64,000 bases of DNA from Polaromonas sp. YR568 (GTDB lineage: Bacteria; Pseudomonadota; Gammaproteobacteria; Burkholderiales; Burkholderiaceae_C): contig CAMCUN010000010.1 of the NCBI GenBank assembly GCA_945878995.1, forward strand, positions 1 to 64,000. Direction: 5' to 3'. Position 1 is the stretch's first letter, and each line of letters opens with the position of its first letter. The notes below the pieces were generated by a model. The model did no database searches and was not told the DNA's origin. It was given only the letters and a program-made list of their open reading frames with translations. The translations under genes and the position numbers were made by a program. Below are positions 15,333 through 29,849 of this stretch, piece after piece.

Positions 15333-16259
15333 TCACACCCCAAACCGCCCCGTCCACTTGCGCTCATAGCCCATCTTGTCAAAGTGCTCGACCATGAAGT
15401 CTATGAAGGTGCGGACCTTGGCCGACAGGTGTTTGCGGCTGGGGTAGGCCAGGTTGATGTTCAGGCGCGGCAGGTCCCAGTCGTCGAGCACGGGCACCAG
15501 GCGGCCGGCGACGATGTCGTCGAACAAGATGTAAGTGGGTTGCACCAAGATGCCCAGGCCGTCCAGGGCGGCAGCGCGCAGAATTTGCCCGTCGTTCGAT
15601 TCCAGCAGGCCGCGCACGGTCACCACGCTTTGAACGCCGCCCTTGGCAAAGCGCAACTCGTTGGGGTTGTTGGCATAGGTGTACAGCAGCAGTTTGTGGC
15701 GCTGCAGGTCTTCCAGGGTTTTGGGCGTGCCGTGGCGGGCCAGGTAGCCGGGGGAGGCGGCCATCAGGCGCCGGGTTTCGGCCACGCGGCGTATGGTGAT
15801 GTTGGAGTCGGGCTCAGACTCGCGGGTGCGTATGGCCACGTCGATGTTGTTGTCGATGATGTCCATGTAGCGGTTGGCCGCCTCCAGGTGCACCTGCACG
15901 TTAGGGTAGCGATTAGTGTATTCCCTGAGCAGCGGTGCCACATGGTGCATGGAAAACGACAGCGAAGCGGTGATGCGCAGCGTGCCCGTGGGGTTGAGCG
16001 CGGTAGCGTTGACCGCAGATTCTGCGTCACGCAGGTCGGCCACGATGGTGCGGGCACGGCTGAAAAACTCGCGGCCAGTGTCAGTCAGGTACAGCCTGCG
16101 CGTGTTGCGCTCGACCAGCCTGGCGCCCAGTCGCCCTTCCAGGGCGGCCAGGTGGCGGCTGGCGGCGGCGTTCGAGAGGTCCAGCGCTTCGGCTGCACGG
16201 CTCAAACTGCCGGTTTCAGCCACCTTTACAAAGAGCTCGATTTCTGTCCAGCGGTCCAT
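15333..16259 (-). CDS. LysR-family transcriptional regulator
   Basis: 308-residue regulator with an N-terminal winged helix-turn-helix (ELFVKVAETGSLSRAAEALDLSNAAASRHLAALE, residues about 7-40) and a C-terminal effector domain (GTLRITASLSF onward). ATG 16259 gives the normal family N-terminus; the frame continues open to 16358. It is transcribed divergently from the intradiol-dioxygenase cluster starting at 16438, so it is the likely regulator of that cluster, with an aromatic substrate or pathway intermediate as effector. Confidence 0.9.
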   Translation of the reverse strand: MDRWTEIELFVKVAETGSLSRAAEALDLSNAAASRHLAALEGRLGARLVERNTRRLYLTDTGREFFSRARTIVADLRDAESAVNATALNPTGTLRITASLSFSMHHVAPLLREYTNRYPNVQVHLEAANRYMDIIDNNIDVAIRTRESEPDSNITIRRVAETRRLMAASPGYLARHGTPKTLEDLQRHKLLLYTYANNPNELRFAKGGVQSVVTVRGLLESNDGQILRAAALDGLGILVQPTYILFDDIVAGRLVPVLDDWDLPRLNINLAYPSRKHLSAKVRTFIDFMVEHFDKMGYERKWTGRFGV

Positions 16260-16336
16260 AAAAGAAGTTTTTAAGGGGTTGTGCTCTGCTTTAGTTTCCC
16301 AATCGTAGCGCTTGAGGGGCTTTATCAGTGGCTTTC

Positions 16337-16425
16337 TTCCGCGCAGCGGAAAAGTCATTTGCGCCCACCGCCTTTTTATTCCACTTGGCCCTGCCTACCA
16401 TCTGGCCCACAACAACTCATTGTGG
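16337..16425. promoter_or_regulatory. Intergenic control region between the LysR gene and the dioxygenase cluster
   Basis: Two short perfect dyads lie in this 178-bp divergent gap: TTCCGC/GCGGAA (16337-16342 and 16346-16351, 3-bp spacer) and CCACAA/TTGTGG (16407-16412 and 16420-16425, 7-bp spacer). The second sits directly before the GGAG ribosome-binding site of the first dioxygenase. Either could be a regulator site or an mRNA hairpin. No convincing -10/-35 pair was fixed. Confidence 0.3.
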
Positions 16426-16437
16426 TGGAGACTCGCC

Positions 16438-17271
16438 TTGCGCAACCTGAACCAGGACACCATCACCCAGGCCGTGATTGCCGGCCTGGTTGACACGCCT
16501 GATGCCCGGCTGAAGGAGCTGATGACCAGCCTGGTCCAGCACCTGCACGCCTTTGCGCGCGACACCCGTTTGACTGAGGCAGAGTGGGCTTTGGGCATTG
16601 ATTTTCTGACGGCCGTGGGCCATCAATGCAGCCCCACGCGGCAAGAGTTTATTTTGTTGTCAGATGTGTTGGGCCTGTCCATGCTGACGGTGGCCATGAA
16701 CAACGACAAACCCCAAGGGTGCACCGAGTCCACCGTGTTTGGCCCCTTTCATGTCCCAAATGCCCCGCGGGTGCCCAATGGCGGCGATGTGGCCCAGGGC
16801 GCGGCCGGCCAGCCTTGCCTGGTGCGTGGCCGCGTGCTGTCCCGCGACCACACGCCCTTGGCCGGGGCGTGTGTGGAGGTGTGGCAGGCCGATGCCCAGG
16901 GCAAGTACGACGTGCAGTACGAGGACCTGGCACAGCCGCGCGCACGCGGCGTGCTGCAAGCCGATGTGCAAGGTCGTTTTGAGTTCCACACCATCGTGGC
17001 CGAGCCCTATCCCATTCCTACCGACGGGCCTGTGGGCGATTTGCTGCGCGCCACGCAGCGCCACCCTTGGCGGCCAGCGCACCTGCACTTCATGGTGACG
17101 GCGCCTGGTCACCAAAACCTGATCACGCATGTGTTCCGCGATGGCGACCCCTACTTGGACAGCGACGCGGTTTACGGCGTGCGCCAGTCGCTGGTGGCGC
17201 CTTGGGTGCAGCAGGCCGATGGCCTCTGCACCATGGACTTTGACTTTGTCTTGAATGCGAATCCCTCATGA
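16438..17271 (+). CDS. Intradiol ring-cleavage dioxygenase (hydroxyquinol 1,2-dioxygenase-like), copy 1
   Basis: 277-residue Fe(III) dioxygenase that would cleave a catechol or hydroxyquinol between its two hydroxyls. The four iron ligands are present: Y157 (GKYDVQ), Y191 (EPYPIPTDGP), H215 and H217 (RPAHLHFMV). The N-terminal RNLNQDTITQAV and PDARLKELMTSLVQHLH form the helical dimer domain seen in hydroxyquinol dioxygenases. No ATG fits: the family N-terminus begins at TTG 16438, preceded by GGAGAC at 8 bp. The frame is open to 16312. It is first in a cluster and overlaps the next gene by 4 bp. Confidence 0.9.
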   Translation: MRNLNQDTITQAVIAGLVDTPDARLKELMTSLVQHLHAFARDTRLTEAEWALGIDFLTAVGHQCSPTRQEFILLSDVLGLSMLTVAMNNDKPQGCTESTVFGPFHVPNAPRVPNGGDVAQGAAGQPCLVRGRVLSRDHTPLAGACVEVWQADAQGKYDVQYEDLAQPRARGVLQADVQGRFEFHTIVAEPYPIPTDGPVGDLLRATQRHPWRPAHLHFMVTAPGHQNLITHVFRDGDPYLDSDAVYGVRQSLVAPWVQQADGLCTMDFDFVLNANPS

Positions 17272-17573
17272 TTTTCAGCTTCATCCTGATTGACAAACCA
17301 GACGCGGGCGATCTTCGCCAACGCATTCGCCCCGAGCACAAGGCCTACTTGGCCGGCGTGGCCGAGCGCATAGCGTTTGCGGGTCCTTTGGTGGCCGACG
17401 ACGGCCAGACCATGCTGGGCAGCTTGCTGGCCATTGATTTCCCCAGTCGCGATGCCGCCCATGCCTGGTTGGCCGACGAGCCCTTCACCCGTGCAGGCTT
17501 GTATGCCAGCGTGACCATCCATGCTTTTGTGAACCTGTGGCCGCAGCGCGCCGGGTTTGCGCCTGCCGCTTGA
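17268..17573 (+). CDS. YciI-family protein
   Basis: 101-residue dimeric alpha/beta-barrel protein of the YciI type, related to muconolactone isomerase and Dabb folds. FSFILIDKPDAGDLRQRIRPEHKAYL and AGPLVADDGQTMLGSLLAIDF are typical. Its ATG overlaps the dioxygenase stop (ATGA), which suggests tight coupling and perhaps a role in isomerising or hydrolysing the ring-cleavage product. The reaction is not established. Confidence 0.85.
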   Translation: MIFSFILIDKPDAGDLRQRIRPEHKAYLAGVAERIAFAGPLVADDGQTMLGSLLAIDFPSRDAAHAWLADEPFTRAGLYASVTIHAFVNLWPQRAGFAPAA

Positions 17574-17885
17574 ATGACCTTGCGCATGATCAAGCACATC
17601 GTCATGTGGAATCTGCTGGGCGACAGCCCTGAAGCCAAGGTACAAGCCATTGCCCAACTCAAGCACAGCTTTGAGTCGCTGCGCGGGCTGGTGCCTGGCT
17701 TGCTGCGATTGGAAATTGGCGTGGACAGCAGCGGCGTGGACTATGCCTGCGACGTGGTGCTGTACTCCGAATTCGAGTCGCAAGCGGCACTCAACGCCTA
17801 CGCCGTGCACCCTGAACACCTGCGCGTGAAAAACGAACTCGAAGGCCTGCGAATTGCCCGCCATCAGGTGGACTACAGTGCCTGA
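17574..17885 (+). CDS. Dabb (stress-responsive A/B barrel) domain protein
   Basis: 103 residues. MIKHIVMWNLLG, the VPGLLRLEIGVD strand and VHPEHLRVKNELEGL are the Dabb signatures. It starts on the base after the stop of the YciI gene, so it belongs to the same transcript. Dabb proteins are small dimeric barrels; some act on polyketide or aromatic intermediates. An alternative ATG lies four codons in. Confidence 0.85.
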   Translation: MTLRMIKHIVMWNLLGDSPEAKVQAIAQLKHSFESLRGLVPGLLRLEIGVDSSGVDYACDVVLYSEFESQAALNAYAVHPEHLRVKNELEGLRIARHQVDYSA

Positions 17886-17908
17886 ATGTCTTTATCAAAC
17901 GGAAAAAA

Positions 17909-18526
17909 ATGAACCAAACCATGCACGATGAACTTGAAATCAGGCAAATGGTGGAGCGCTGGGCGCTGTGGCGCGACGCGGGCGACTGGGAGCGCTTTGT
18001 CACGGTGTGGCACCCCGATGGCGTGATGATGGCCACCTGGTTCCAGGGGCCGGCCAAAGACTTTATTCGCGTCACGCAAGAAGGCTGGGCCAAGGGCGTG
18101 AGCATCCTCCATTTTCTGGGCGGCAGCGCCGTGGAGGTGGCCGGTGACCGCGCTATTTCCCAAACCAAAATGACCATTTCCCAGCGCGGCATGGTCGAGG
18201 GCGAGAACGGCCCGGTGCTGTGCGACGTGGTCTGCACAGGCCGCTTTTACGACTTTGTGGCCCGCCATGAAGGCCAGTGGAAGATGCTGCACCGCCAGCC
18301 TATTTATGAAAAAGACCGCATAGACCCGGTGGACTCGACCGCCGTGCTCAAGCTCGATCAGCAGGCCCTGGCCGGGTTTCCTGAGGGTTATCGCCACCTG
18401 GCCTACATTCAGACCCGCATCGGTTACACCGTGAAGATGGACATGCCCATGCTCAAGGGCGAGGTGGTGCAGGAGCTCTACCAGCGCGGCGCGCGCTGGC
18501 TGGCCGGCGGGCCGCTGGAGCGCTGA
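17909..18526 (+). CDS. SnoaL-like / NTF2-fold protein
   Basis: 205 residues with an N-terminal SnoaL-like cone (HDELEIRQMVERWALWRDAGDWERF, VWHPDGVMMATWFQG). This fold hosts dehydratases, isomerases and ring-hydroxylase small subunits. The C-terminal 60 residues (GYRHLAYIQTRIGYTV) extend beyond the usual domain of about 130 residues. It lies 23 bp after the Dabb gene. It probably handles a pathway intermediate, but no catalytic residues can be assigned from sequence alone. Confidence 0.8.
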   Translation: MNQTMHDELEIRQMVERWALWRDAGDWERFVTVWHPDGVMMATWFQGPAKDFIRVTQEGWAKGVSILHFLGGSAVEVAGDRAISQTKMTISQRGMVEGENGPVLCDVVCTGRFYDFVARHEGQWKMLHRQPIYEKDRIDPVDSTAVLKLDQQALAGFPEGYRHLAYIQTRIGYTVKMDMPMLKGEVVQELYQRGARWLAGGPLER

Positions 18527-18558
18527 GCTTTTTTTAAAAAACACAACGGAGACAGACC

Positions 18559-19539
18559 ATGAACAAACGCCTTTTCAATACCTCTTTGCTCGCTGGCATG
18601 CTCGCCTCGCTGGGCCTGGGCTCGAGCGCCTTGGCGCAGGCCTACCCCACCAAGCCTTTGCGCGTGGTGGTGCCGCAGCCGCCCGGTGGTGGCTTTGACG
18701 TGGTGGGCCGTTTGTTGGCCGACCGCCTGGGCAAGGCCCTGGGCCAGGGCGCGGTGGTGGAAAACCGCCCCGGCTCGGGCACGTTGGTAGGCACTGACCT
18801 GGTGGCCAAGGCCGCGCCCGACGGCTACACGCTCTTGGTCGGCTCGGTCTCCAACCTGGCGCTCAACCCGGGGCTGTACCGCAATTTGCCCTATGACAGC
18901 CTGCGCGACTTTGAGCCCGTGGGTTTGGCCGTGGCCTACAGCTACACCTTGGTGGCGCGCAAGGACCTGCCCTTTAACAACCTGCGCGAGTTGATGGCAT
19001 ACGCCAAAGCCAATCCCAAAAAACTGAGCTTTGCCTCAGGCGGCAGCGGCTCTGGCCAGCATGTGTTGGCTGCGGCCTTGTGGAATTTGACCGGCGTGGA
19101 CGTGGTGCATGTGCCCTACCGAGGCGCGCAAGCGGCTTACCAAGACCTGCTGGGCGGCCGCGTGGATGTGTTTTTTGACCTCTCCCCCACGGCCAGACCG
19201 CAGGTGGAGGCGGGCAACCTCAAGGCCTTGGCCGTGTCGGGTTCCACCCGCTTGCCTTTCCACCCTGAGGTGCCTACATTGGCTGAGGCCGGTGTGGCCA
19301 ACATTGAGCTGGAATCTTGGTTTGGCCTGTTTGCACCGGCCAAGACGCCTCCGGAGTTGCTTGAGCGCCTGCGCACAGAGCTCCTTCGCATCGTGCAGGC
19401 GCCTGATTTGGTGGAGACCTTCCGCAAAGCTGGCGGCAAGCCCTTGGCGCTGAGCACAGACCAGGCCAAAGCCTTGGTCAAACGCGACGTGGACCGCTGG
19501 TCCAAGATCACCCGCGACCTGGACATCAAGCCTGAATGA
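18559..19539 (+). CDS. Bug/TctC-family solute-binding protein of the dioxygenase cluster
   Basis: 326 residues with a signal peptide (cleavage after SSALAQ near residue 28). It shows VVPQPPGGGFDVVGRLLADRL, VVENRPGSG and VVHVPYRGAQAAYQDLLGG. It lies inside the aromatic cluster, so its ligand is probably a pathway substrate, although the cluster also carries a full ABC importer. A ribosome-binding site (GGAGAC) is clear. No TctA or TctB gene is present. Confidence 0.9.
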   Translation: MNKRLFNTSLLAGMLASLGLGSSALAQAYPTKPLRVVVPQPPGGGFDVVGRLLADRLGKALGQGAVVENRPGSGTLVGTDLVAKAAPDGYTLLVGSVSNLALNPGLYRNLPYDSLRDFEPVGLAVAYSYTLVARKDLPFNNLRELMAYAKANPKKLSFASGGSGSGQHVLAAALWNLTGVDVVHVPYRGAQAAYQDLLGGRVDVFFDLSPTARPQVEAGNLKALAVSGSTRLPFHPEVPTLAEAGVANIELESWFGLFAPAKTPPELLERLRTELLRIVQAPDLVETFRKAGGKPLALSTDQAKALVKRDVDRWSKITRDLDIKPE

Positions 19540-19602
19540 GCCTGGGACCACAGGGACACGCGCTAAGCTCTGTCCTTTAACTTTTATTTAAAAATCTGAA
19601 TC

Positions 19603-20187
19603 ATGAAAATCTCCGACGCTTGCCTGGACCAAATCTTCAACAAGGCCCGCTCGGCCAACGGCTTCACCGACCAGCCCGTGTCCGTCCAATTGCTGCAAGA
19701 GGTTTACGACCTGGCCAAGATGGGGCCCACGTCCATGAACACCCAGCCCACGCGCTATGTGTTTCTGACCACGCCCGCGTCCAAAGAGCGCTTGCTGCCC
19801 GCCTTGTCACCCACCAATGTGGACAAAACCAAGTCCGCGCCTGTGACCGTGATCGTGGCCAACGACACGCGCTTTTTCGAGCACATGCCCGTGGTCTGGC
19901 ACAACCCTGGCGCCAAAGAGATGTTTGAGGGCAATGCGGTCATGGCAGGCGCCACCGCCAGCCGCAACGGCACGCTGGGCGGCGCCTACTTCATGGTGGC
20001 CGCGCGTGCGCTGGGTCTGGACTGCGGCCCCATGAGTGGCGTGGACCTGGCCAAGGTCAATGCCGAATTCTTTGCCGATGGCCGCTTCCAAGCCAACTTT
20101 TTGATCAACCTGGGTTACATGGACACGAGCAAGTTGTTCCAGCGCAACCCGCGCCTGAGTTTTGAGCAGGCCTGCCAGGTTCTCTGA
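19603..20187 (+). CDS. RutE-like nitroreductase / malonic semialdehyde reductase
   Basis: 194-residue FMN enzyme of the nitroreductase fold. KMGPTSMNTQPTRYVFL is the RutE/YdfN-type FMN signature, and AGATASRNGTLGGAYFMVAARALGLDCGPMSG and INLGYMD follow as in 3-hydroxypropionate-forming malonic semialdehyde reductases. With no rut genes present, here it may reduce a small aldehyde or unsaturated product from ring cleavage, perhaps in the role a maleylacetate reductase would play. That role is inferred from position. Confidence 0.85.
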   Translation: MKISDACLDQIFNKARSANGFTDQPVSVQLLQEVYDLAKMGPTSMNTQPTRYVFLTTPASKERLLPALSPTNVDKTKSAPVTVIVANDTRFFEHMPVVWHNPGAKEMFEGNAVMAGATASRNGTLGGAYFMVAARALGLDCGPMSGVDLAKVNAEFFADGRFQANFLINLGYMDTSKLFQRNPRLSFEQACQVL

Positions 20188-20276
20188 GTGGGTCCCCCCC
20201 TGCGGCTGACCCAGCCTCAGGGGCGCACTTGGCGCAGGTCAGCCTGACCCAAGAATAAATAGCAGGAGACAAGACC

Positions 20277-21179
20277 ATGACCCAGTTGCAGTTTGAAGGC
20301 AAAGACCTCGCCGAGGCGGTGATACAGCGCATGGCTGACAGCCCAGATGCGCGCTTCAAGCAGGTCTTGACCTCGCTGGTCAAGCATGCCCATGCCTTTG
20401 TGCAAGACGTGGACCTCCAGCCTGAAGAGTGGATGACGGCCATCGAGTTCCTCACCGCCTGCGGCAAGATGTGCGATGAAAAACGCCAAGAATTCATCTT
20501 GCTGTCTGACACGCTGGGCATCTCCATGCTGGTCGTGGCCTTGGAGCAGGCGCGCGGTGCGGCCGCGCTCAAAGCCAACCCGCCCAAAGGGACGCCCACC
20601 GAGGCCACGGTCTTGGGGCCTTTTTTCTGGGAAGGCGCGCCCGAATTGCCGCTGGGCGCTGACATCAGTGACCACCAATCCGGCGAGCCTTGCTACTACC
20701 ACGGCCAGGTCACCGACACGGCGGGCAAGCCCCTGGAAGGCGCCATCCTTGACGTGTGGTCGGGCGATGGCGATGGCTTTTACGACATGCAAAAAGGCGA
20801 TGGCAACACCATGGCCTTGCGGGCGCGCTTTCGCACCGACAAGAACGGCTACTACCACTACTGGTCCATCAAGCCGGCTTTTTACCCCGTGCCCGACGAC
20901 GGCCCCGTGGGTGGCATGCTCAGGCGCATGGGCCGCCACCCCAACCGCCCTGGCCACATGCACACCGTGCTGCAGGCCGGCGGGCATGAGCGTTTGGTGA
21001 CACATATTTTTGTCTCTGACAGCCCCTACATCGAGTCGGATGCGGTGTTCGGCGTGCGTGAGAGCCTGATTGCTCAATTCAAGTCGCATGCGGCAGGCAC
21101 GGCGCCCGATGGTCGGGTCATGGCCATGCCGTTTCACTCCGCCCACTACGACTTCCACCTGGTGCCCTCCAGCGCCTAG
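20277..21179 (+). CDS. Intradiol ring-cleavage dioxygenase (hydroxyquinol 1,2-dioxygenase-like), copy 2
   Basis: 300-residue paralogue of the gene at 16438. Iron ligands are Y169 (GFYDMQ), Y203 (AFYPVPDDGP), H227 and H229 (RPGHMHTV). The dimer domain includes PDARFKQVLTSLVKHAHAF and QEFILLSDTLGISML, close to copy 1, but the sequences clearly differ around the active site (WSGDGDGFYD against WQADAQGKYD). That suggests different substrates. AGGAGA at 20263-20268 is a good ribosome-binding site. Confidence 0.92.
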   Translation: MTQLQFEGKDLAEAVIQRMADSPDARFKQVLTSLVKHAHAFVQDVDLQPEEWMTAIEFLTACGKMCDEKRQEFILLSDTLGISMLVVALEQARGAAALKANPPKGTPTEATVLGPFFWEGAPELPLGADISDHQSGEPCYYHGQVTDTAGKPLEGAILDVWSGDGDGFYDMQKGDGNTMALRARFRTDKNGYYHYWSIKPAFYPVPDDGPVGGMLRRMGRHPNRPGHMHTVLQAGGHERLVTHIFVSDSPYIESDAVFGVRESLIAQFKSHAAGTAPDGRVMAMPFHSAHYDFHLVPSSA

Positions 21180-21259
21180 GCCTGAATTTCCTAGCCTCAG
21201 GTTTTGGCCACTGCCCGTGGCCTGTTTGAACCCCTTGCCCACCTCAAAGGAGAAAAATT

Positions 21260-22066
21260 TTGAAAATCGGAAAAGCCTCCCATGTCCGCACCGCCATCAG
21301 CACCTCCAATGCAGACGCCATCATCGTGCGCGGTCGCAACCTGTCGGACGAGCTCATTGGGCACGTCAACTTTGGCGATTACTTTCATCTGCTGCTGACA
21401 GGCCGCATGCCCGATGCGGCCACCAGCGCGGTGCTCAATGCCACCTTGGTGGCCATTGCCGAGCACGGTCTGGTGCCCAGCAACCAAGCGGCGCGCATGA
21501 CCTATGCGGCAGCTCCTGAGGCCATGCAGGGCGCGGTGGCCGCTGGCCTCTTGGGCGCCGGCTCGGTGGTGTTTGGCTCGTCCGAGGTGGCAGGGCGCCT
21601 GTTTTTGCGGGTGGAACAAGAGGCCAAGCAGCACGGCGGCGACATTCATGCGGCCGCCTATGCGGTGGTCAGCGACTTGCGCGCCAAACGCCAGTCTATT
21701 CCCGGCTACGGCCACCCCGAGCACAAAGAGCGCGACCCGCGCGTGGATGCCTTGTTCAATGTCTCGCTCAAGGCCGGCGCGTCGCAAAATTACGTGAACA
21801 TTGCCAAGGCCATCGAAGGCGTGATTCCAGGCATCGTGGGGCGCGAGCTCAAGCTCAATGTCTCGGCAGGCATTCCGGCGGTGCTGCTGGACGTGGGTTT
21901 TCCGGTGAACGCGCTCAAAGGCGTGCCGATTTTGGCGCGCACCGCCAGCTTGATTGCCCACCTCAACGAGGAAATCGCCGACCCCATCGGTTTTGCGCTG
22001 GCCTACCAAGCGCTCAATGAATTCGAGTACACGGGCGATGTGCCCACTGGCTTTAAGGCGGAGTAA
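21260..22066 (+). CDS. Citryl-CoA lyase-like (citrate-synthase fold) protein
   Basis: 268 residues, the short citrate-synthase-like form known from citryl-CoA lyases, which split a citryl-CoA type thioester into an oxo acid and acetyl-CoA. The active-site segment GYGHPEHKERDPRVDAL matches the citrate synthase His...DPR motif, and HGGDIHAAAYAVVSDLRAKR precedes it. Translation starts at TTG 21260, preceded by AAGGAG at 8 bp; there is no nearby in-frame ATG. The next gene, a CoA-transferase, begins 3 bp downstream of the stop, so the two very likely work together on a CoA thioester. Confidence 0.85.
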   Translation: MKIGKASHVRTAISTSNADAIIVRGRNLSDELIGHVNFGDYFHLLLTGRMPDAATSAVLNATLVAIAEHGLVPSNQAARMTYAAAPEAMQGAVAAGLLGAGSVVFGSSEVAGRLFLRVEQEAKQHGGDIHAAAYAVVSDLRAKRQSIPGYGHPEHKERDPRVDALFNVSLKAGASQNYVNIAKAIEGVIPGIVGRELKLNVSAGIPAVLLDVGFPVNALKGVPILARTASLIAHLNEEIADPIGFALAYQALNEFEYTGDVPTGFKAE

Positions 22067-22069
22067 ACC

Positions 22070-23227
22070 ATGGCACAAGTTTTGTCTGAGCTCAAGGTGC
22101 TGGAACACGGCACCTTCATCACTGGCCCGGCTGCGGGCATGCTGCTGGCTGATTTGGGCGCCGACGTGCTCAAGGTCGAGCTGCCTGGCACGGGCGACCC
22201 GTTTCGCGCTTTTAAGGGTGAGCTCTACAGCCCGCACTTTCAAACCTACAACCGCAACAAGCGCAGCATCACGCTCAACACCAAAGACAAGGCCGACCTG
22301 GCCCGCTTTGACGAGCTGGTCGCAGAGGCCGATGTGTACATCCAGAACTTTCGCCCCGGCGTGGCCGAGAACATTGGCGCCGGTTACGAGCGCCTCAAGG
22401 CCCTCAACCCTAAGCTGATTTACTGCGCCATCAGCGGCTTTGGCCGCGACGGTCCCTACAGCGACCGGCCCAGCTACGACTCGGTGGCCCAGGCGGCGAG
22501 CGGCTTTTTGCGCCTCTTGGTCAACCCCAACGATCCGCGCGTGGTCGGCCCGGCCCTGGCCGACGCCTTGACTGGTTTTTATGCCGCTTACGGCATTCAG
22601 GGTGCGCTGTTTGAGCGCAGCCGCACTGGCCAGGGGCGGCTGGTGGAGGTGTCCATGCTCGAAGCCATGACGCACTTCAACCTGGACGCTTTCACGCACC
22701 TGTTCTCGGCCGACGAGGTGGTGGGCCCCTTCAGCCGGCCGCGCGTGTCGCAGTCCTATGTGCTGGAGTGCGAAGACGGCCACTGGGTGGCGCTGCACAT
22801 GTCCTCTCCCCCGAAGTTTTGGGAGGGCCTGGCCCGCGCCATGGAGCGGCCGGACATTTTTCAAGACCCGCGCTTTGCCACCCGCGAGGCGCGCATTGGC
22901 AACCAAGAGGCCATGATTGAGGTGCTCTCGGCCATTTTCAAAACCCGCAAGCGCGTGGAGTGGTGCAACCGCTTGGTGGCCGAAGACGTGCCGCACGCGC
23001 CCATGTACAACACGCCCGAGGTGCCCGAAGACCCGCAGGTCAAGCACCTGCAGCTGTTTGTAGAAGCCCCGTCGCCCTTGCCCAACACCACCTTCAAGAC
23101 GGTGCGCTCGCCCGTGTCCTACGACGGTGAGCGCTCGTTGGAGGTCACGGCGCCGCCCTTGCTGGGCCAGCACAATGCGCAGATGACCAAGGGCTGGCCT
23201 GCCCGCAGCACCAAGGAATCCACATGA
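22070..23227 (+). CDS. CaiB/BaiF (class III) CoA-transferase
   Basis: 385 residues. VLEHGTFITGPAAGMLLADLGADVLKVE is the class III N-terminus, YNRNKRSITLN and the ISGFGRDGPYSDRPSYD loop bind CoA, and D165 in ALADALTGFYAAYG is placed as the catalytic Asp. It would move CoA from a donor thioester to an organic acid. Tight linkage to the citryl-CoA-lyase-like gene suggests that it activates that enzyme's substrate. Its stop overlaps the next small ORF (ATGA). Confidence 0.92.
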   Translation: MAQVLSELKVLEHGTFITGPAAGMLLADLGADVLKVELPGTGDPFRAFKGELYSPHFQTYNRNKRSITLNTKDKADLARFDELVAEADVYIQNFRPGVAENIGAGYERLKALNPKLIYCAISGFGRDGPYSDRPSYDSVAQAASGFLRLLVNPNDPRVVGPALADALTGFYAAYGIQGALFERSRTGQGRLVEVSMLEAMTHFNLDAFTHLFSADEVVGPFSRPRVSQSYVLECEDGHWVALHMSSPPKFWEGLARAMERPDIFQDPRFATREARIGNQEAMIEVLSAIFKTRKRVEWCNRLVAEDVPHAPMYNTPEVPEDPQVKHLQLFVEAPSPLPNTTFKTVRSPVSYDGERSLEVTAPPLLGQHNAQMTKGWPARSTKEST

Positions 23228-23388
23228 GCGCACGGCGCCGCGCTCTGCTGGCCTTGTCAGCCGCCAAGCTCCAAGCCCAAGGGCTGGAGCTGCGCGCCAT
23301 GCGCGCTGAAGAGATGGTGTCCTTTGGCCGCACCGAAATCACCAAATGGGCAGAGCTCGTCAAGCGCTCGGGTGCCCAGGTGGACTGA
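23224..23388 (+). pseudogene. 54-codon ORF matching the C-terminus of a Bug/TctC protein
   Basis: The ORF begins in an ATGA overlap with the CoA-transferase stop. Its translation ends in EEMVSFGRTEITKWAELVKR followed by SGAQVD. That is the typical last helix of Bug-family binding proteins (FxRxEIxKWxxLVKxSGAxxD); the preceding KLQAQGLELRAM also fits. The signal peptide and both lobes are missing. It is most likely the remnant of a deleted Bug gene whose 3' end became joined to the CoA-transferase gene. A translated microprotein is possible because the start is well placed. Confidence 0.7.
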
Positions 23389-23445
23389 GCCTTTGTTTGC
23401 CCCTGAACGTTCCCGCTTTTTCACTTTTACTTACTGGAGACACGC

Positions 23446-24648
23446 ATGAAAAAAATAGACCGCCGTTCCCTGCTGACCGCCACCGCGGCCGGCGCCGCTG
23501 CTTTGGTGGCCCCTTCATCGTTTGCACAGGGCGCGCCGATTCGCATTGGCAGCACCTTGGCGCTGACTGGGCCTTTGTCGGCCACGGGCCTGACCCACAA
23601 GTTGGTCGGTGAGATTTACATTGACCAACTCAATGCACGCGGTGGCCTGTTGGGCCGCAAGGTCGAATGGATGGTCAAGGACGACCAGTCCAAGCCCGAC
23701 CTCGCCCGCACCTTGTACGAGCAGTTGATCACCGCTGACAAGGTGGACTTGCTCATGGGCCCCTATGCCACGGGCGCCATTTTGTCGGCCATGGGCGTGG
23801 CCCAGCGCTATGGCAAGGTGCTGGTGCACCACACCTTTGGCATTCCCTCGCTGGCCAAGTACGACATGCATTTCCCGGCTTGGTCCTTGGGCCCCACGCC
23901 CCAGACCACGGTGCCTAACACCGTGTTTGATGCCCTGGCCGCCTCGCCCAAGCCGCCCAAGACGATTGCCATCGTCACCAGCAAATTCCCCTCCATCCAT
24001 TTCTTGTCGCTGGGCGGCCGTGCGGTGGCCAAGCAGCGCGGCCTGCAAGAGGTGCTGTTCCTCGAATGGGAATTTGGCAACCGCGACTTCGGCCCCATTG
24101 CCGCGCGTGTGAAAGACGCCAAGCCCGATTTGGTGTGGATTGGCGACATTGGCTTGGAGGGCAACATGCTGCTCGACGCCATGAAAAAGATCGACTACAC
24201 GCCGCCCATGAACTTCCACCTGTATCCCGCACCAGGTCCCATGACCAAGGCGCCGGAAGGCCAGGGCGCCATGTCGCTGACCATTTTTGAAGAGCACCAG
24301 CCTTTCTTGGGCAACCCAGGCGGTGCGCAGTTCGTCAAGGTCTTCAACGAGCGCGCCACGCAAGCCAAGCTGGCCGACACCAGTGTGGAAACCCAAGCCG
24401 CGGCCTCGTTCTCGGCCTGGCAAATTTTGGAAGCAGGTGTCCGGGGTGCCAACAGCCTTGACGACAAGGCCATTGCAGGCTGGCTCAAGGCCAATCGAGT
24501 GGACACCATCCACGGCCGCCTGCGCTTTGACGGCCCCAGCAACTACGGCGACGACCTGATGAAGATCAAGCAAGTGCAAGGCGGCAAGTGGCAGGTGGTT
24601 TGGCCCGCGCAGTTCGCGGCACCCGGCGTCAAGCTGCAGGTCAAGTAA
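23446..24648 (+). CDS. ABC transporter substrate-binding protein, branched-chain amino acid (LivK) type
   Basis: 400-residue periplasmic receptor. KKIDRRSLLTATAAGAAAL is a Tat-like signal (RRSLL), with cleavage after SSFAQ near residue 28. PIRIGSTLALTGPLSATG and the VKDDQSKPDLARTLYEQL segment are typical of type I periplasmic binding proteins (Peripla_BP_6). Proteins of this group often bind aromatic or other carboxylates instead of leucine. It is the first gene of a complete importer. GGAGAC precedes the start. Confidence 0.9.
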   Translation: MKKIDRRSLLTATAAGAAALVAPSSFAQGAPIRIGSTLALTGPLSATGLTHKLVGEIYIDQLNARGGLLGRKVEWMVKDDQSKPDLARTLYEQLITADKVDLLMGPYATGAILSAMGVAQRYGKVLVHHTFGIPSLAKYDMHFPAWSLGPTPQTTVPNTVFDALAASPKPPKTIAIVTSKFPSIHFLSLGGRAVAKQRGLQEVLFLEWEFGNRDFGPIAARVKDAKPDLVWIGDIGLEGNMLLDAMKKIDYTPPMNFHLYPAPGPMTKAPEGQGAMSLTIFEEHQPFLGNPGGAQFVKVFNERATQAKLADTSVETQAAASFSAWQILEAGVRGANSLDDKAIAGWLKANRVDTIHGRLRFDGPSNYGDDLMKIKQVQGGKWQVVWPAQFAAPGVKLQVK

Positions 24649-24684
24649 ACGCTTAAGCCAACCAACCGTGAAGGTGACTCGCCA

Positions 24685-25542
24685 ATGACGCTTCCGAGCC
24701 TGAATTTATTGATGCAATCGATCCTGTCCGGGATCTTCATTGGCAGTTTGTACGGTCTCATCGGTCTGGGCCTGGGCCTGACCTGGGGCCTGCTGCGGCA
24801 AATCAATTTGTCCCACTTTGGCCTGGTGTTTCTGGGGGCCTACCTCAGCTACCACATGGCCACGGTGGCCCACATTGACCCCTTGTGGGGCTTGTTGATC
24901 TTGCCGCCTTTTTTCTTTGTGTTTGGAGCGGGCATGCAGTGGGTGTTGGCGCGTTTTGCCATCACCCCCTTTAACTCGCTGCTGGCGACCTTTGGCGTCA
25001 CGGTGGTGATCGAGTCGCTGATTCAAAGCATTTGGACGGCCGACTACCGCCGCTTGGAGTCCGATTACAACGACATGAAGTTCAAGGTGGGCTCGCTGTT
25101 TGTGCCTATTCCTGAACTGATCACGCTGGTGCTGGCCGTGGGCATTGCGGTGGCCATTTGGGCTGCCATGCGCTACACCGACTTGGGCAAAGCCTTGCGT
25201 GCCATGGCCGAGGACGCACCCATTGCGGCGGCTTTTGGCATCAACCAAAAAGCACTCTCGCTGGGCTTGGCGGGCATGTGCTCGGCCTTGGCAGCGATTG
25301 CAGGCGTGTGCCTGGCGCTGACCTTCACGCTGGCGCCTTCGCAAATCTTCACCTGGGTGGGCGTGGTCTTTGCCGCCGTCATGTTGGGCGGCTTGGGCAG
25401 CCCGCTGGGCCCTTTGTTCGCCGGTATTTTGATTGGCGTGAGCGAGGCAGTCACCATGGCTGTGGCTTCGCCCTCGTGGGCACCCATCGTGTCTTTTTCT
25501 CTGTTGATCTTCATGCTGCTGCTGCGGCCCGGCAAGAGCTGA
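24685..25542 (+). CDS. ABC transporter permease, LivH type
   Basis: 285 residues with about eight hydrophobic segments. SGIFIGSLYGLIGLGLGLTWG and the cytoplasmic EDAPIAAAFGINQKALSL coupling loop are the LivH signatures, and GGLGSPLGPLFAGILIGVSE is the C-terminal motif. It pairs with the LivM part of the next gene to form the channel. Confidence 0.93.
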   Translation: MTLPSLNLLMQSILSGIFIGSLYGLIGLGLGLTWGLLRQINLSHFGLVFLGAYLSYHMATVAHIDPLWGLLILPPFFFVFGAGMQWVLARFAITPFNSLLATFGVTVVIESLIQSIWTADYRRLESDYNDMKFKVGSLFVPIPELITLVLAVGIAVAIWAAMRYTDLGKALRAMAEDAPIAAAFGINQKALSLGLAGMCSALAAIAGVCLALTFTLAPSQIFTWVGVVFAAVMLGGLGSPLGPLFAGILIGVSEAVTMAVASPSWAPIVSFSLLIFMLLLRPGKS

Positions 25543-25555
25543 ATCGAGCCCCCTC

Positions 25556-27319
25556 ATGAACAAAACCATTTCCGGCATTCTTGCCGCAGGCCTGGTGCTG
25601 GCCTGTGTGCCTTGGCTGGGTCTGCCGGCCTTTTACGAGTCGTTTCTCTATCTGATTTGCCATTGGGTGATCCTGGCCATGTCCTGGAACATCTTGTCGG
25701 GCTACTCGGGCTACTTTTCTTTTGGCCACGGCGTGTTCTTTGGCGTGGGCATGTACACCACGGGCGCGCTGGCGGGCAAGCTGGACTGGCCTTTTTTGGC
25801 CACCTTGCCCTTGGCCGCACTCTTTCCGGCTTTGCTGGGCGTGCTGCTCGGGGCGGTGGTGTTCCGCGTCAAGGCGGTGCGCGGTGAGCTGTTTGCGCTG
25901 TTGACCTTGGCCGTGACTTTTGTGGTGGCGACCATCATCATCAACACCCCGATTGACGGCGGCCCAGGCGTCTACCTCATGGCCGTGGAGGTGCCCAAGC
26001 TCGGGCCTTCTCCGGGCTCATCGCTCTACCTGTTGGCGCTGCTGGTGATGGTGGCCACGGCACTGATTGCCTACACCTTGCAAAAATCCAAGCTGGGTGT
26101 GGGTCTGTATGCCATTCATGACGACGAGGACGTGGCCGAGGTCATGGGCGTGCCCACTTACGGCTACAAGCTGCTGGCCTTTGCGGTCTCCAGCGCCTTG
26201 GCGGGTCTGGCGGGCGGCATCCATGCGCTTTTTGTGCAGTACGTCACAGTGGGTGAGACCTTCAACATCACCGTGCCGCTGACCGTGGTGCTGATGAGCT
26301 GCCTGGGCGGCTCGCGCCATTGGGCCGGTCCCGCCGTCGGTGCAGTGTTCATCACTTGCCTGCTGTATTACTTCACGGCGGGCAACAACCCGGTGTTGGG
26401 CAAGGCGGCCGTGGGTGTGGTGCTGATTGCGGTGATTTTGTTCATGCCCAACGGCGTGATGGGTTACTTCCTCAAGCGGCGCGCCAATCAGGCCGCCGAG
26501 CGCAGCCGGGCCTTGGAGGCGGCCGGCCAGGTGCACGCGTCTTTGCCGGTGGTGGTGTCCACGCCTGCTCCGCGACCCGCTCCTGGCAGCACCGAGGTGC
26601 TTCTGGAAACGCGGGGTCTGTCCAAGGCCTTCAAAGGGGTGCAAGCGCTCAGCGAGGTCAGCTTGACCGTGCACAAGGGCGAGATTTTGGGTTTGCTGGG
26701 GCCCAACGGTTCGGGCAAGTCCACCTTCATCAACGTGGTCAGTGGTCACTACGCGGCCACAGGCGGCAGCTACATGTTTGAGGGCCGCGAGTTGGCGGGC
26801 CTGCCCGCCCACCAGGTGGCGCAGTCTGGCATTGCCCGCACCTACCAAATTCCTCGCCCCTTCGCGCAAATGACGGTGATTGAAAACGTCATCATGGCGG
26901 CCATGTTCGGCAGTGCCGCCATGAACCGGCCCCAGGCCACCGAAGAGGCCATGAAATGCCTGGAGTTCACCGGTCTCAAACACAAGGCTGAAAGCCTGCC
27001 CGACGACTTGAACCTGCATCAGCGCAAGTTCTTGGAATTGGCGCGTGCCTTGGCTTCGCGGCCCAGGTTGGTGCTGCTCGACGAGGTGCTCTCGGGCATG
27101 ACGCCCAGCGAGATCAACGAGGCCATTGAGCTGATACGCCGCATCCGTGACCAGGGCTCCACCATTGTGTTTGTCGAACACGTGATGCGCGCTGTCATGG
27201 CCTTGGCCGACCGTGTGGCCGTGCTCAACCACGGCAAGCTGCTGGCCGTGGGGTCTGTGAAAGAGGTCATGAGCAACCCTGAAGTGGTCAGTGCTTACCT
27301 GGGGAAAGCCCATGCTTGA
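25556..27319 (+). CDS. Fused ABC permease (LivM) and ATPase (LivG)
   Basis: 587-residue fusion. Residues 1 to about 310 are the LivM permease (MSWNILSGYSGYFSFGHGVFFG, coupling loop DDEDVAEVMGVPTYGYK). A Pro/Ala-rich linker spans about 311-345. From about 345 it is a LivG ATPase with Walker A GPNGSGKSTFIN near 383, Walker B RLVLLDEVLSGM and a switch His in FVEHVM. The ABC signature reads LNLHQRKFLELARAL and lacks the usual SGGQ. The next gene overlaps by 8 bp. The fusion fixes permease and ATPase stoichiometry. Confidence 0.93.
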   Translation: MNKTISGILAAGLVLACVPWLGLPAFYESFLYLICHWVILAMSWNILSGYSGYFSFGHGVFFGVGMYTTGALAGKLDWPFLATLPLAALFPALLGVLLGAVVFRVKAVRGELFALLTLAVTFVVATIIINTPIDGGPGVYLMAVEVPKLGPSPGSSLYLLALLVMVATALIAYTLQKSKLGVGLYAIHDDEDVAEVMGVPTYGYKLLAFAVSSALAGLAGGIHALFVQYVTVGETFNITVPLTVVLMSCLGGSRHWAGPAVGAVFITCLLYYFTAGNNPVLGKAAVGVVLIAVILFMPNGVMGYFLKRRANQAAERSRALEAAGQVHASLPVVVSTPAPRPAPGSTEVLLETRGLSKAFKGVQALSEVSLTVHKGEILGLLGPNGSGKSTFINVVSGHYAATGGSYMFEGRELAGLPAHQVAQSGIARTYQIPRPFAQMTVIENVIMAAMFGSAAMNRPQATEEAMKCLEFTGLKHKAESLPDDLNLHQRKFLELARALASRPRLVLLDEVLSGMTPSEINEAIELIRRIRDQGSTIVFVEHVMRAVMALADRVAVLNHGKLLAVGSVKEVMSNPEVVSAYLGKAHA

Positions 27320-28025
27320 AGTTCAAAACATTTTTGTCAATTACGGCGCGGCGCCTGCCTTGTGGGACGTGTCCGTCAATGTGCAGGACAAAGAGTTGGT
27401 CTGCGTGGTGGGCCCCAACGGCGCTGGCAAAACCACCTTGATCAACGCCATGGCTGGGCTGCACGCGGTCAAAAGCGGTCAGCTGCGTTTTGGCGGTCGC
27501 GACATCACCCGACTGGAAAGCCACCGGTTTTGCGAGGCAGGCATCGCCATCGTGCCTGAAGGCCGGCGCCTGTTCACGCAAATGACCGTCATGGACAACC
27601 TGGAACTGGGCAGCTTTTTGCCTGCTGCCAAAGCCAGGCGAGCCGAGCGCTTAGAGCGGGTGCTCTCGCTTTTTCCGGCGCTCAAGGTCAAGCTGCCCAG
27701 TCCAGCGGGCTCGCTGTCTGGCGGCCAGCAGCAAATGGTGGCCATAGGCCGTGCGCTCATGGCCGGCCCCACGCTGCTGCTGCTCGACGAGCCTTCGCTG
27801 GGGCTGGCGCCCACTATTGTGTTGGACATGTTTGCCGCCATCCGCCAGATCAATGCCGAGGGCACAGCGGTGCTGCTGGTGGAGCAAAACGTGTCCATGG
27901 CGCTGGAGACGGCTCACCGCGCCTACGTCATGGAAGAAGGCCGCATCGTGGCGCAAGGCCAGGCCAAGGAAATGATGAACCGGCCCGAGATTCAACGGGC
28001 TTACTTGGGCGTAGAGGCGCACTGA
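27312..28025 (+). CDS. ABC transporter ATP-binding protein, LivF type
   Basis: 237-residue second ATPase of the importer. Walker A GPNGAGKTTLINAM, signature LSGGQQQMVAIGRALM and Walker B TLLLLDEPSLGLAP are intact. ATG 27312 starts the conserved LEVQNIFVNYG strand and overlaps the livMG stop by 8 bp. It completes the transporter of the aromatic cluster. Confidence 0.95.
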   Translation: MLEVQNIFVNYGAAPALWDVSVNVQDKELVCVVGPNGAGKTTLINAMAGLHAVKSGQLRFGGRDITRLESHRFCEAGIAIVPEGRRLFTQMTVMDNLELGSFLPAAKARRAERLERVLSLFPALKVKLPSPAGSLSGGQQQMVAIGRALMAGPTLLLLDEPSLGLAPTIVLDMFAAIRQINAEGTAVLLVEQNVSMALETAHRAYVMEEGRIVAQGQAKEMMNRPEIQRAYLGVEAH

Positions 28026-28096
28026 CCTGCAGGGGGGCTTGGGCAAGAAGCCAGACTTGCTTGGCAGGTCATTGCTGTGCGCTGAAGCTTGAGCCT

Positions 28097-28942
28097 GTGA
28101 GCATCCGTTGGCCAGAGCCGTCAAAGGCCTTGCCCTTGGTTTGCGATTCACCGCACAGCGGCACTTTTTACCCGGCAGACTTTCAGCCTGCTTTGCCCAT
28201 GGCCTTGTTGCGCCAGGGTGAAGACACCGATGTCGATGCGCTGTGGTGCTCTGCCGTGGACGTGGGGGCCACCTTGATTGCCGCCTGCTTTCCGCGCAGC
28301 TACATTGGTCCCAACCGGGCCTTGTCAGACCTCGACCCTCTTTTGTTGGACGGTCCCTGGCCAACGGCGCTGGCGCCGGGTGAAAAGTCCCGCCTGGGTT
28401 TTGGGCTGGTCTGGAGCAAAGTGGACGCAGACCATCCCATTTATGACCGCCGCTTGTCGGTGGCCGAGGTGCAGCAGCGCATTGCATCTTGTTGGCAGCC
28501 CTACCGCGATGCGCTGGCCCAGGAAATTGAAGGCGCCGCTCAGCAATTTGGGGCGGTTTGGCACCTGAACCTGCACTCCATGCCTGACAACGCCTATGCC
28601 CGCTTGGGGATCAAGCCCCATCGGCCGCTGGCTGACTTTGTCTTGGGGGACCGAGACGGCACCACCTGTGAGCCTGATTTCATCGACGTGGTTGAACGCA
28701 GTTTGCGCAGCTTTGGTTACAGCGTGGCCCGCAACGACCCCTACAGGGGCACGCCCTTGCTGTTGCAAACCGGTCAGCCCGCCTTGGGGCGCCACAGCCT
28801 GCAAATTGAAATTCGACGCCCGCTTTATATGAATGAGGCCACGCGCGAGAGAAACGCCCTTTTCCATGTGCTGCAGTGGCAAATGAGCCACACCCTGCGC
28901 AATGTGGCGCACAACTCGCCTGCCATCTCATGCGCTGACTGA
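28097..28942 (+). CDS. N-formylglutamate amidohydrolase-family protein
   Basis: 281 residues from GTG 28097; TTG 28061 would add 12 residues, and no start has a strong ribosome-binding site. LVCDSPHSGTFYPADF near residue 16 and GPNRALSDLDPLLLD are the family's zinc-site motifs. WHLNLHSMP, DFVLGDRDGTT and GRHSLQIEIRRPLYMNE are also conserved. Family members hydrolyse N-formyl-L-glutamate or related N-acyl acids. It lies 71 bp after livF on the same strand and could act on imported material, but no hut genes are near. Confidence 0.85.
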   Translation: MSIRWPEPSKALPLVCDSPHSGTFYPADFQPALPMALLRQGEDTDVDALWCSAVDVGATLIAACFPRSYIGPNRALSDLDPLLLDGPWPTALAPGEKSRLGFGLVWSKVDADHPIYDRRLSVAEVQQRIASCWQPYRDALAQEIEGAAQQFGAVWHLNLHSMPDNAYARLGIKPHRPLADFVLGDRDGTTCEPDFIDVVERSLRSFGYSVARNDPYRGTPLLLQTGQPALGRHSLQIEIRRPLYMNEATRERNALFHVLQWQMSHTLRNVAHNSPAISCAD

Positions 28943-29093
28943 GCCCTTTGGGGGCGGCCATGTGGCTGTGACACGAGCGAGCCTGGCAGCGCTTGGCCAG
29001 GCGCAAGCCGCCAGGCTTTGCGCCTTGCTGGGCGCTCAAACGGCGGGGAGGGAAATTCAGACTATTCTTGAGATCGTTTTTTTGACCTTTCCC

Positions 29094-29849
29094 ATGTCCC
29101 TGCCTTTAATCACTGACCCTTTTTTTTACGCCGTGGCCATTCCGGCGACCTTGTTGATGGGGGTGAGCAAAAGTGGCTTTGGCACGGGTTTTGGCTCCCT
29201 GGCCGTGCCCTTGATGGCGCTGGCAGTGACGGTGCCCGAGGCGGCCGCCATCATGATGCCGGTGTTGTTTTTCATCGATGTGCTGGGCTTGGCGGCATTT
29301 CGCAAGAACCTGGACTTCAAGCTGCTTAAGTTTTTGGTGCCCTGCGGCCTGCTGGGCACGCTGATGGGCTATTTGCTGTTCAAGGTGCTGGATGCGCGCG
29401 TGGTGGCTGCCATGGTGGGTGGCTTTACCTTGCTGTTTTTGGCCCAGCGCATGCTTTTCCCGCCCAAGGCCGATGCCCCGCCGCCGCCGCGTTGGGTGGG
29501 GGCTTTTCTGACGGTGACATCAGGCTTTACCAGCTTTGTGGCACATGCCGGTGGCCCGCCTCTGAGTGTGTACGTGATCCCCTTGCGACTGTCTCCTTTG
29601 TTGTTCGCGTCCACCATGTCTTTTTTCTTTTTTTCCATCAATTTGTCCAAGTGGATTCCTTACGGGCTCTTGGGGCTGCTGGACTGGCGCAACATGGTCA
29701 CCTCACTGGCTTTGCTGCCTTTTGTGCCCTTGGGGGTATGGACAGGGGTGCGCTTGGCCAAGCACATCAGGCCGGAGCTTTTTTACCGTTTTCTGTATGC
29801 CGGAATGTTTCTTACAGGCGCCAAGCTGCTCTGGGATGGCTTGCAATGA
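29094..29849 (+). CDS. TauE/SafE-family membrane exporter
   Basis: 251-residue integral membrane protein with about eight segments. Its two internal repeats are recognisable (MGVSKSGFGTGFGSLAVPLM in the first, GFTSFVAHAGGPPLSVYVI in the second). The family moves sulfite, sulfonates or other organic anions. ATG 29094 follows an open but non-conserved stretch. It is convergent with trmL. Confidence 0.88.
   Translation: MSLPLITDPFFYAVAIPATLLMGVSKSGFGTGFGSLAVPLMALAVTVPEAAAIMMPVLFFIDVLGLAAFRKNLDFKLLKFLVPCGLLGTLMGYLLFKVLDARVVAAMVGGFTLLFLAQRMLFPPKADAPPPPRWVGAFLTVTSGFTSFVAHAGGPPLSVYVIPLRLSPLLFASTMSFFFFSINLSKWIPYGLLGLLDWRNMVTSLALLPFVPLGVWTGVRLAKHIRPELFYRFLYAGMFLTGAKLLWDGLQ

Follow-up and report, generated by a model that had tools for sequence, protein, structure and literature searches.

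Gene content and conservation of the locus

The stretch analysed here (the window) comprises 64,000 nt of Polaromonas sp. YR568, a bacterium of freshwater type (contig CAMCUN010000010.1, positions 1-64,000), and the span examined within it, 16438-28025, carries an aromatic ring-cleavage locus: two intradiol dioxygenases (IDO1 and IDO2), several small accessory proteins, a protein annotated as a citryl-CoA lyase, a class III CoA-transferase (CoAT), and a Liv-type importer (Table 1). We interpret this as a composite, hydroxyquinol-type catabolic locus in which two modules, A and B, are joined, a reading to which we assign a probability of roughly 0.6. The genes listed in a preliminary description of this DNA all have open reading frames, are closely spaced and belong to the families stated there (profile searches of the window proteins, with Pfam and NCBIfam matches), including the divergent LysR gene. 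These searches also agree with that description in finding no maleylacetate reductase (MAR) or cycloisomerase among the genes of the span.

The intergenic gaps from IDO1 to LivF range from -29 to +89 bp, with the exception of 218 bp ahead of the Liv-type binding protein. IDO1 and YciI overlap by 4 bp, the lyase-like gene and CoAT are 3 bp apart, and the gap between RutE and IDO2 is 89 bp. Because scans for promoter-like (3 vs. 2.4 ± 1.6) and terminator-like elements (25 vs. 19.3 ± 4.1) gave chance-level counts, the operon limits rest on spacing. A search for long repeats found none.

Table 1. Features of the locus and its immediate flanks (positions in the window)
Feature	Module	Position	Strand	Family matches and remarks
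LysR-type regulator	A	15333..16358	-	Pfam HTH_1 + LysR_substrate; divergent from IDO1
IDO1, probable hydroxyquinol 1,2-dioxygenase	A	16438..17271	+	Dioxygenase_N + Dioxygenase_C; TTG start as in the preliminary description; frame open from 16312
YciI-family protein	A	17268..17573	+	PF03795 (YCII)
Dabb-domain protein	A	17574..17885	+	PF07876
SnoaL_4 protein	A	17909..18526	+	PF13577
Bug/TctC periplasmic binding protein	A	18559..19539	+	PF03401
RutE-like nitroreductase-family FMN enzyme	A	19603..20187	+	NCBIfam NF003768
IDO2, hydroxyquinol-type intradiol dioxygenase	B	20277..21179	+	Dioxygenase_N + Dioxygenase_C; lyase-linked clade
Citrate-synthase-fold protein annotated citryl-CoA lyase, non-canonical active site	B	21260..22066	+	NF004868, PF00285
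Class III CoA-transferase (CoAT)	B	22070..23227	+	PF02515
Liv-type periplasmic binding protein		23446..24648	+	Peripla_BP_6
LivH-type permease		24685..25542	+	BPD_transp_2
LivM-LivG fusion		25556..27319	+	BPD_transp_2 + ABC_tran
LivF-type ATPase		27291..28025	+	ABC_tran
N-formylglutamate amidohydrolase-like gene (FGase)		28061-28942		Between LivF and TauE
TauE/SafE-family membrane protein		28902..29849	+	PF01925; outside the span examined

With the SnoaL protein as bait, a scan of named genomes confirmed at least 520 relatives, of which the best 80 loci were kept; gene recurrence in these SnoaL-selected loci was scored at identities of at least 55%, and many of them are cut by contig ends. The loci are Comamonadaceae/Burkholderiales records (e.g., Curvibacter, Limnohabitans, Polaromonas, Hydrogenophaga, Ramlibacter, and Hylemonella). 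Of the module A genes, lysR is found in 48 of them, IDO1 in 49, YciI in 51, Dabb in 61, Bug in 72, and RutE in 50, and this association exceeds chance. Other recurrent genes are MAR (36), TauE (33), a 3-hydroxyisobutyrate-dehydrogenase-like gene (HIBDH, 26), an FAD monooxygenase (25), the lyase-like gene (20), CoAT (20), and IDO2 (19). In a separate draw of 299 family genomes, SnoaL was present in 27, this genome included. Both data sets bear out the idea of a ring-cleavage cluster conserved in other Comamonadaceae. As for its description as a single cluster, the neighbourhood is indeed recurrent, but it consists of two joined modules; TauE is part of the conserved neighbourhood, and FGase, found in none of the 80 loci, was rejected as a pathway member. 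A Liv importer accompanies 20 loci, a TRAP importer 18, and neither 42. Since the two never co-occur, either importer would seem to serve. One of the loci (L092), from a record titled as a Bordetella parapertussis metagenome-assembled genome contig, a title that looks doubtful, has a SnoaL gene 85% like that of the window.

Module A and the proposed route through maleylacetate

Module A looks like a hydroxyquinol-type lower pathway, given the likeness of IDO1 and the YciI protein to characterized enzymes, the MAR partners shared with plasmid-borne clusters, and passages in published reviews. Hydroxyquinol-type dioxygenases are far better matches than catechol enzymes for both IDO1 and IDO2. 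For IDO1, the top PDB match is the hydroxyquinol 1,2-dioxygenase 1tmx (288.5 bits), while the best chlorocatechol enzyme reaches 126.9 bits, and at the 15 positions that we take to line the pocket of 1tmx, the aligned residues of IDO1 are all identical (15/15). The IDO1-type set for this comparison comprised 69 rows, the best match of each locus, and includes some IDO2-type rows. The top PDB match of the YciI protein is TftG, a 5-chloro-2-hydroxyhydroquinone dehydrochlorinase (E 3.7e-8).

Relatives of the accessory proteins occur in annotated plasmid clusters together with MAR and intradiol dioxygenase genes. SnoaL relatives at 58-65% identity lie in such groups in all four annotated plasmid regions viewed, namely those of Caballeronia NK8, Shinella WSD5-1, and Rhodococcus R138 (together with MAR and the dioxygenase) and that of Sinorhizobium Rm41 (within one cluster). 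On a plasmid of Variovorax SRS16, a 46% relative of the Dabb protein is flanked by the dioxygenase and a MAR remnant. A Paraburkholderia PGU16 plasmid carries a YciI-family gene, which the YciI of the window does not match, with a dioxygenase and MAR, and a trichlorophenol-type monooxygenase, MAR, and a dioxygenase form a group on a plasmid of Variovorax VAI-C. A structure model of SnoaL (mean pLDDT 40.3) was discarded.

The RutE-like protein exceeds the NF003768 (RutE) cut-off (267.9 vs. 152 bits); the gene scan recovered no other rut gene. Its context, in the neighbourhood counts and in Variovorax RA8, points to a role other than malonic semialdehyde reductase: a plasmid of Variovorax RA8 carries, in this order, a flavin reductase, an HpaB-type monooxygenase, a 54% relative of the RutE-like protein, MAR, and a dioxygenase. 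Among the 80 loci, RutE occurs alone in 50 and FMN_red alone in 17, with neither in 13. That the two are never found in one locus suggests a shared function, and the RutE-like enzyme is a candidate quinone reductase.

The closest known systems are the chlorophenol hydroxyquinol pathways tcp (Cupriavidus necator JMP134) and tft (Burkholderia AC1100), as presented in passages of PMC3975901, which share a hydroxyquinol-type intradiol dioxygenase, MAR, and a 3-oxoadipate end. These passages cover TftG, a hydroxybenzoquinone reductase step, and the nitroreductase-like TcpB; as partners, TcpB resembles the RutE-like enzyme and TftG the YciI protein. Unlike tcp and tft, the locus lacks a chlorophenol monooxygenase, has no MAR in the window, and has additional SnoaL, Dabb, Bug, and Liv genes as well as module B. 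In p-nitrophenol pnp clusters, passages of PMC6063337 place a YciI-family gene (pnpX1) beside MAR and a hydroxyhydroquinone dioxygenase, a further likeness; unlike those clusters, no hydroquinone dioxygenase is among the genes identified here.

A MAR gene is present elsewhere in the genome, at C40:10684-11748, its product 68% identical to the MAR of related clusters. Among PDB matches with a specific name, maleylacetate reductases score best (387.1 and 386.4 bits), and the top match overall (490.6 bits) is named only as an iron-containing alcohol dehydrogenase. The MAR gene is preceded by CMD- and HIBDH-type genes, HIBDH lying directly before it, and relatives have the same partners; in L052, among the loci compared the nearest relative with a nearly complete cluster, HIBDH and MAR stand just upstream of lysR. 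The full row at C40:4801-11751 (L138) reads HIBDH, Amidohydro_1 (PRK08204), Bug, NMT1, CMD, HIBDH, MAR. This order is identical to that ahead of module B in another lyase-bearing locus (L213), and therefore one ancestral cluster seems to have been split in two in this genome. The genes leading from 3-oxoadipate to central metabolism are present on contig C52, where PcaI (371.9 over 128.5 bits), PcaJ (282.7 over 243.55), and PcaF (691.6 over 597) all exceed their cut-offs.

The preliminary description had taken a missing MAR to be characteristic of the pathway, and had named a MAR with a beta-ketoadipate route elsewhere in the genome as evidence that would speak against its proposal. MAR is found on C40 here, in many of the related loci, and upstream of IDO2, the lyase-like gene, and CoAT in L212 and L213, and its absence is not supported as a pathway trait; by gene content, the MAR of C40 and pcaI, pcaJ, and pcaF of C52 constitute such a route for IDO1. 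Two other ring-cleavage routes were considered and rejected. Muconate cycloisomerase and muconolactone isomerase of the catechol ortho pathway are not among the cluster genes (the rest of the genome was not searched for them), and the genome has just three intradiol matches, none of them a pcaGH pair as for protocatechuate 3,4-dioxygenase.

Module B and the citrate-synthase-fold protein

At E 1e-60 or better, a search of 399 genomes sampled from the family detected the lyase-like gene in 27, counting this one. In a class-wide search of 369 genomes it was found in this genome and one other. We examined 26 other lyase-bearing loci, 25 of family genomes and one of the class; the remaining family genome (G097, locus L041) also has IDO2, the lyase-like gene, and CoAT. 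Of the 26 loci, 23 carry IDO2, 24 carry CoAT, and 21 carry the module's own type of LysR; gene order and strand vary, with IDO2 divergent in L231 and L232. Module B is real and conserved, and in relatives it is separately regulated, as the LysR gene between RutE and IDO2 gives it its own regulator there. A 326-aa "gene X" at that place, for which a PDB search gave no match, was rejected as a wrong-strand reading; the true gene is the LysR on the other strand (L052 6281-7165). MAR accompanies the lyase-like gene in four of the 26 loci (L212, L213, L221, and L225), and YciI and Dabb stand in one run with module B in L215. A further protein, annotated in one relative as uroporphyrinogen decarboxylase but with more likeness to cobalamin-independent methionine synthase (PF01717), recurs downstream of the module B Liv genes in L221, L223, L225, L227, L229, L233, and L234.

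In L223 and L236, the two loci that lack CoAT, the lyase-like gene is adjoined by an AMP-binding CoA ligase, which clusters with a scanned Cupriavidus metallidurans protein, and a CoA-activating gene is near the lyase-like gene in 26 of 26 loci. Of the three loci without IDO2, two (L236 and L237) have a different intradiol dioxygenase, 44% and 41% identical to IDO1. On plasmids of two Rhizobiales, Aminobacter MSH1 and Sinorhizobium B11, the lyase-like gene and CoAT adjoin a LigB-type extradiol dioxygenase, in the order lyase, CoAT, LigB; the gene tables of the other plasmid regions viewed for module B were incomplete. The tie between a CoA-activating gene and a ring-cleaving dioxygenase, as previously proposed, is borne out, and the presence of CoAT or CoA ligase with the lyase-like gene, and of LigB alongside the same pair, supports a CoA step after ring cleavage.

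The best PDB matches of IDO2 are 8r2x (255.3 bits) and 1tmx (254.5 bits). In a phylogenetic tree the IDO2 proteins group as a single clade of 45 rows (support 100/99); the tree input held 20 of the 61 available IDO1-type rows plus that of the window. The alignments and the tree exclude tblastn rows that contained an in-frame stop or fell short of 225 to 330 columns. At the presumed pocket positions, IDO2 agrees with the hydroxyquinol enzyme in 13 of 15, and position 108 is L rather than F. Across the lyase-linked dioxygenase rows, 22 of 27 have Q or E at this position and none has F. CoAT, like other class III (CaiB/BaiF) CoA-transferases, has a whole-length PF02515 match and a conserved Asp; this candidate catalytic residue, Asp165, whose role we assume by analogy with Frc, is present in 48 of 48 aligned sequences. 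None of the named NCBIfam transferases that it matched, the mesaconate and glutarate CoA-transferases included, gave a score reaching its cut-off.

The lyase-like protein has the citrate-synthase fold and the length of a lyase (PF00285; NF004868, 319.9 vs. 193 bits; Hydrogenobacter citryl-CoA lyase, PDB 6hxp, 97.7 bits). Its structure model (mean pLDDT 61.6) was used solely to confirm the fold, for which 6hxp is the best match. We take the catalytic residues to be His264, His305, and Asp362 (E. coli citrate synthase numbering), all three of which are present in the alignment references, 6hxp and the genome's own citrate synthase (C90). In all 54 lyase-like proteins aligned, His305 and Arg387 are kept, V or I occupies the position of His264, and S that of Asp362; HMMER alignment gave the same register. 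An additional His, at a site occupied by Tyr in 6hxp, follows His305 at a distance of three residues in all 54. The preliminary description had proposed retro-Claisen cleavage of a citrate-like acid, a claim that rests on the protein's name, because two of the three catalytic residues are missing throughout the family, and it is not sustained. Since the family is conserved, it is probably active, though by a mechanism other than that of textbook citrate synthase, and to judge from the alignment, the name "citryl-CoA lyase" is best taken to denote the fold only.

Three more citrate-synthase-fold proteins of this genome lack the full catalytic triad, two on contig C38 (L172 and L173) and one at C8:30059-30649. 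A second lyase-like protein of this genome, on C8, has F and T at the positions of His264 and Asp362. Another region, C15:16000-34000 (L139), holds a third intradiol dioxygenase, a Liv-type binding protein 61% like that of the window, a thiamine pyrophosphate (TPP) enzyme, Bug, and a second class III CoA-transferase. The TPP enzyme matches oxalyl-CoA decarboxylase and acetolactate synthase, though at scores under the cut-offs, and the region is possibly another CoA-dependent ring-cleavage locus.

Proposed pathway and alternatives

Under the composite reading, a hydroxylase encoded outside the locus would convert an aromatic compound, imported or made locally, to hydroxyquinol (1,2,4-trihydroxybenzene) or a closely related compound. 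The RutE-like enzyme may reduce hydroxybenzoquinone to the quinol and so keep hydroxyquinol reduced, while YciI, Dabb, and SnoaL may catalyse minor proton transfers or dehydrations, acting on the quinol or on the acid formed by ring opening. IDO1 would cleave the ring to 3-hydroxymuconate/maleylacetate, which the MAR of C40 would reduce to 3-oxoadipate, and PcaIJ and PcaF would finish the route. IDO2 would cleave a related, differently substituted trihydroxybenzene, CoAT would convert the ring-opened acid, perhaps after further change, to a CoA thioester, and the citrate-synthase-fold protein would perform non-canonical chemistry on this thioester, most likely C-C cleavage to central metabolites. 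More tentatively, at somewhat less than even odds, we propose that module B represents a widespread lower pathway not described before, in which the thioester of a ring-cleavage product passes to a neofunctionalised citrate-synthase-fold enzyme without the enolate-handling His and Asp, and which replaces the beta-ketoadipate end for its own substrate behind intradiol or extradiol dioxygenases. Searches of open-licence PubMed Central papers turned up no account of this lyase in an intradiol or hydroxyquinol route.

Several observations weigh against the composite reading. None of the genes in the window would make hydroxyquinol, and the FAD monooxygenase on contig C15, 65% like that of the relatives, is tied to this locus by no observation (HpaB-type enzymes were not searched for). 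MAR and IDO1 are on separate contigs in this genome, and the RutE-like enzyme exceeds a curated malonic semialdehyde reductase cut-off. The locus is patchy, with SnoaL in none of three other same-genus genomes of the family draw and the lyase-like gene in none of five searched. Several loci as sequenced (L036, L048, L092, L109, L116, L120, and L128) have SnoaL with no dioxygenase, which argues against tight coupling, and the lyase/CoAT pair of a Paraburkholderia F2 plasmid has no listed dioxygenase within 9 kb. Lastly, the position of MAR in L212 and L213, directly upstream of IDO2, the lyase-like gene, and CoAT, blurs the division into modules.

The alternatives differ mainly in what module B does. 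The version given in the preliminary description, in which both dioxygenases feed a MAR-free route and a citrate-like acid is converted to its CoA thioester and split by a true citryl-CoA lyase, agrees with the linkage of IDO2, lyase-like gene, and CoAT, with the substitution of CoA ligase for CoAT, and with the window's lack of MAR, but is very unlikely given the MAR and pcaIJF genes of this genome, the MAR of related clusters (adjoining module B in L212 and L213), and the loss of the catalytic His and Asp in all 54 lyase-like proteins. The run HIBDH, MAR, IDO2, lyase-like gene, CoAT in L213, together with HIBDH directly ahead of MAR here (L138) and in relatives, could instead reflect one linear pathway, in which MAR yields 3-oxoadipate, the MAR-coupled HIBDH reduces it, CoAT forms 3-hydroxyadipyl-CoA, and the lyase-like protein releases acetyl-CoA and succinate semialdehyde. 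We consider this improbable, as PcaIJ and PcaF would do the job directly and 24 of the 80 loci have MAR without the lyase-like gene in the available sequence.

Two further proposals concern the substrate of module B. A Burkholderia glumae plasmid with the order LysR, IDO2, lyase, FAD hydroxylase, CoAT, LeuC, LeuD, the presence of LeuC and LeuD near the lyase-like gene in Cupriavidus metallidurans, and the sub-threshold scores of CoAT with mesaconate and glutarate CoA-transferases would fit a methyl-substituted hydroxyquinol, cleaved and converted via citraconate to citramalate (LeuCD-type hydratase), then to citramalyl-CoA (CoAT), and finally to pyruvate and acetyl-CoA by the lyase-like protein. 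The methylgentisate/citramalate route would provide a precedent; a LeuC of at least 33% identity lies beside the lyase-like gene in none of L212-L237 (there is one 32% match, in L232), and the altered active site also makes this an unlikely account. Alternatively, module B may act on a vicinal trihydroxybenzene of the pyrogallol or gallate type. Because intradiol and LigB-type cleavage of such compounds would give one product, either dioxygenase type could stand beside the same lyase/CoAT pair, as in Aminobacter MSH1 and Sinorhizobium B11, and the Q or E at pocket position 108, with F in no lyase-linked row, is consistent with a changed substrate of this type. We give this little weight as well, since IDO2 retains most of the hydroxyquinol-enzyme pocket and the LigB-linked lyases, just 52-53% identical, may differ in substrate.

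Module A offers an explanation for the YciI, Dabb, SnoaL, and RutE-like genes, namely that they regularly accompany hydroxyquinol-type dioxygenases and MAR, and makes it possible to test their roles. If module B works as proposed, it would give a function to "citryl-CoA lyases" that are unable to use the textbook mechanism, and would represent a CoA-thioester exit from ring fission other than beta-ketoadipate, carried by 27 of the 399 family genomes and with relatives in Rhizobiales.

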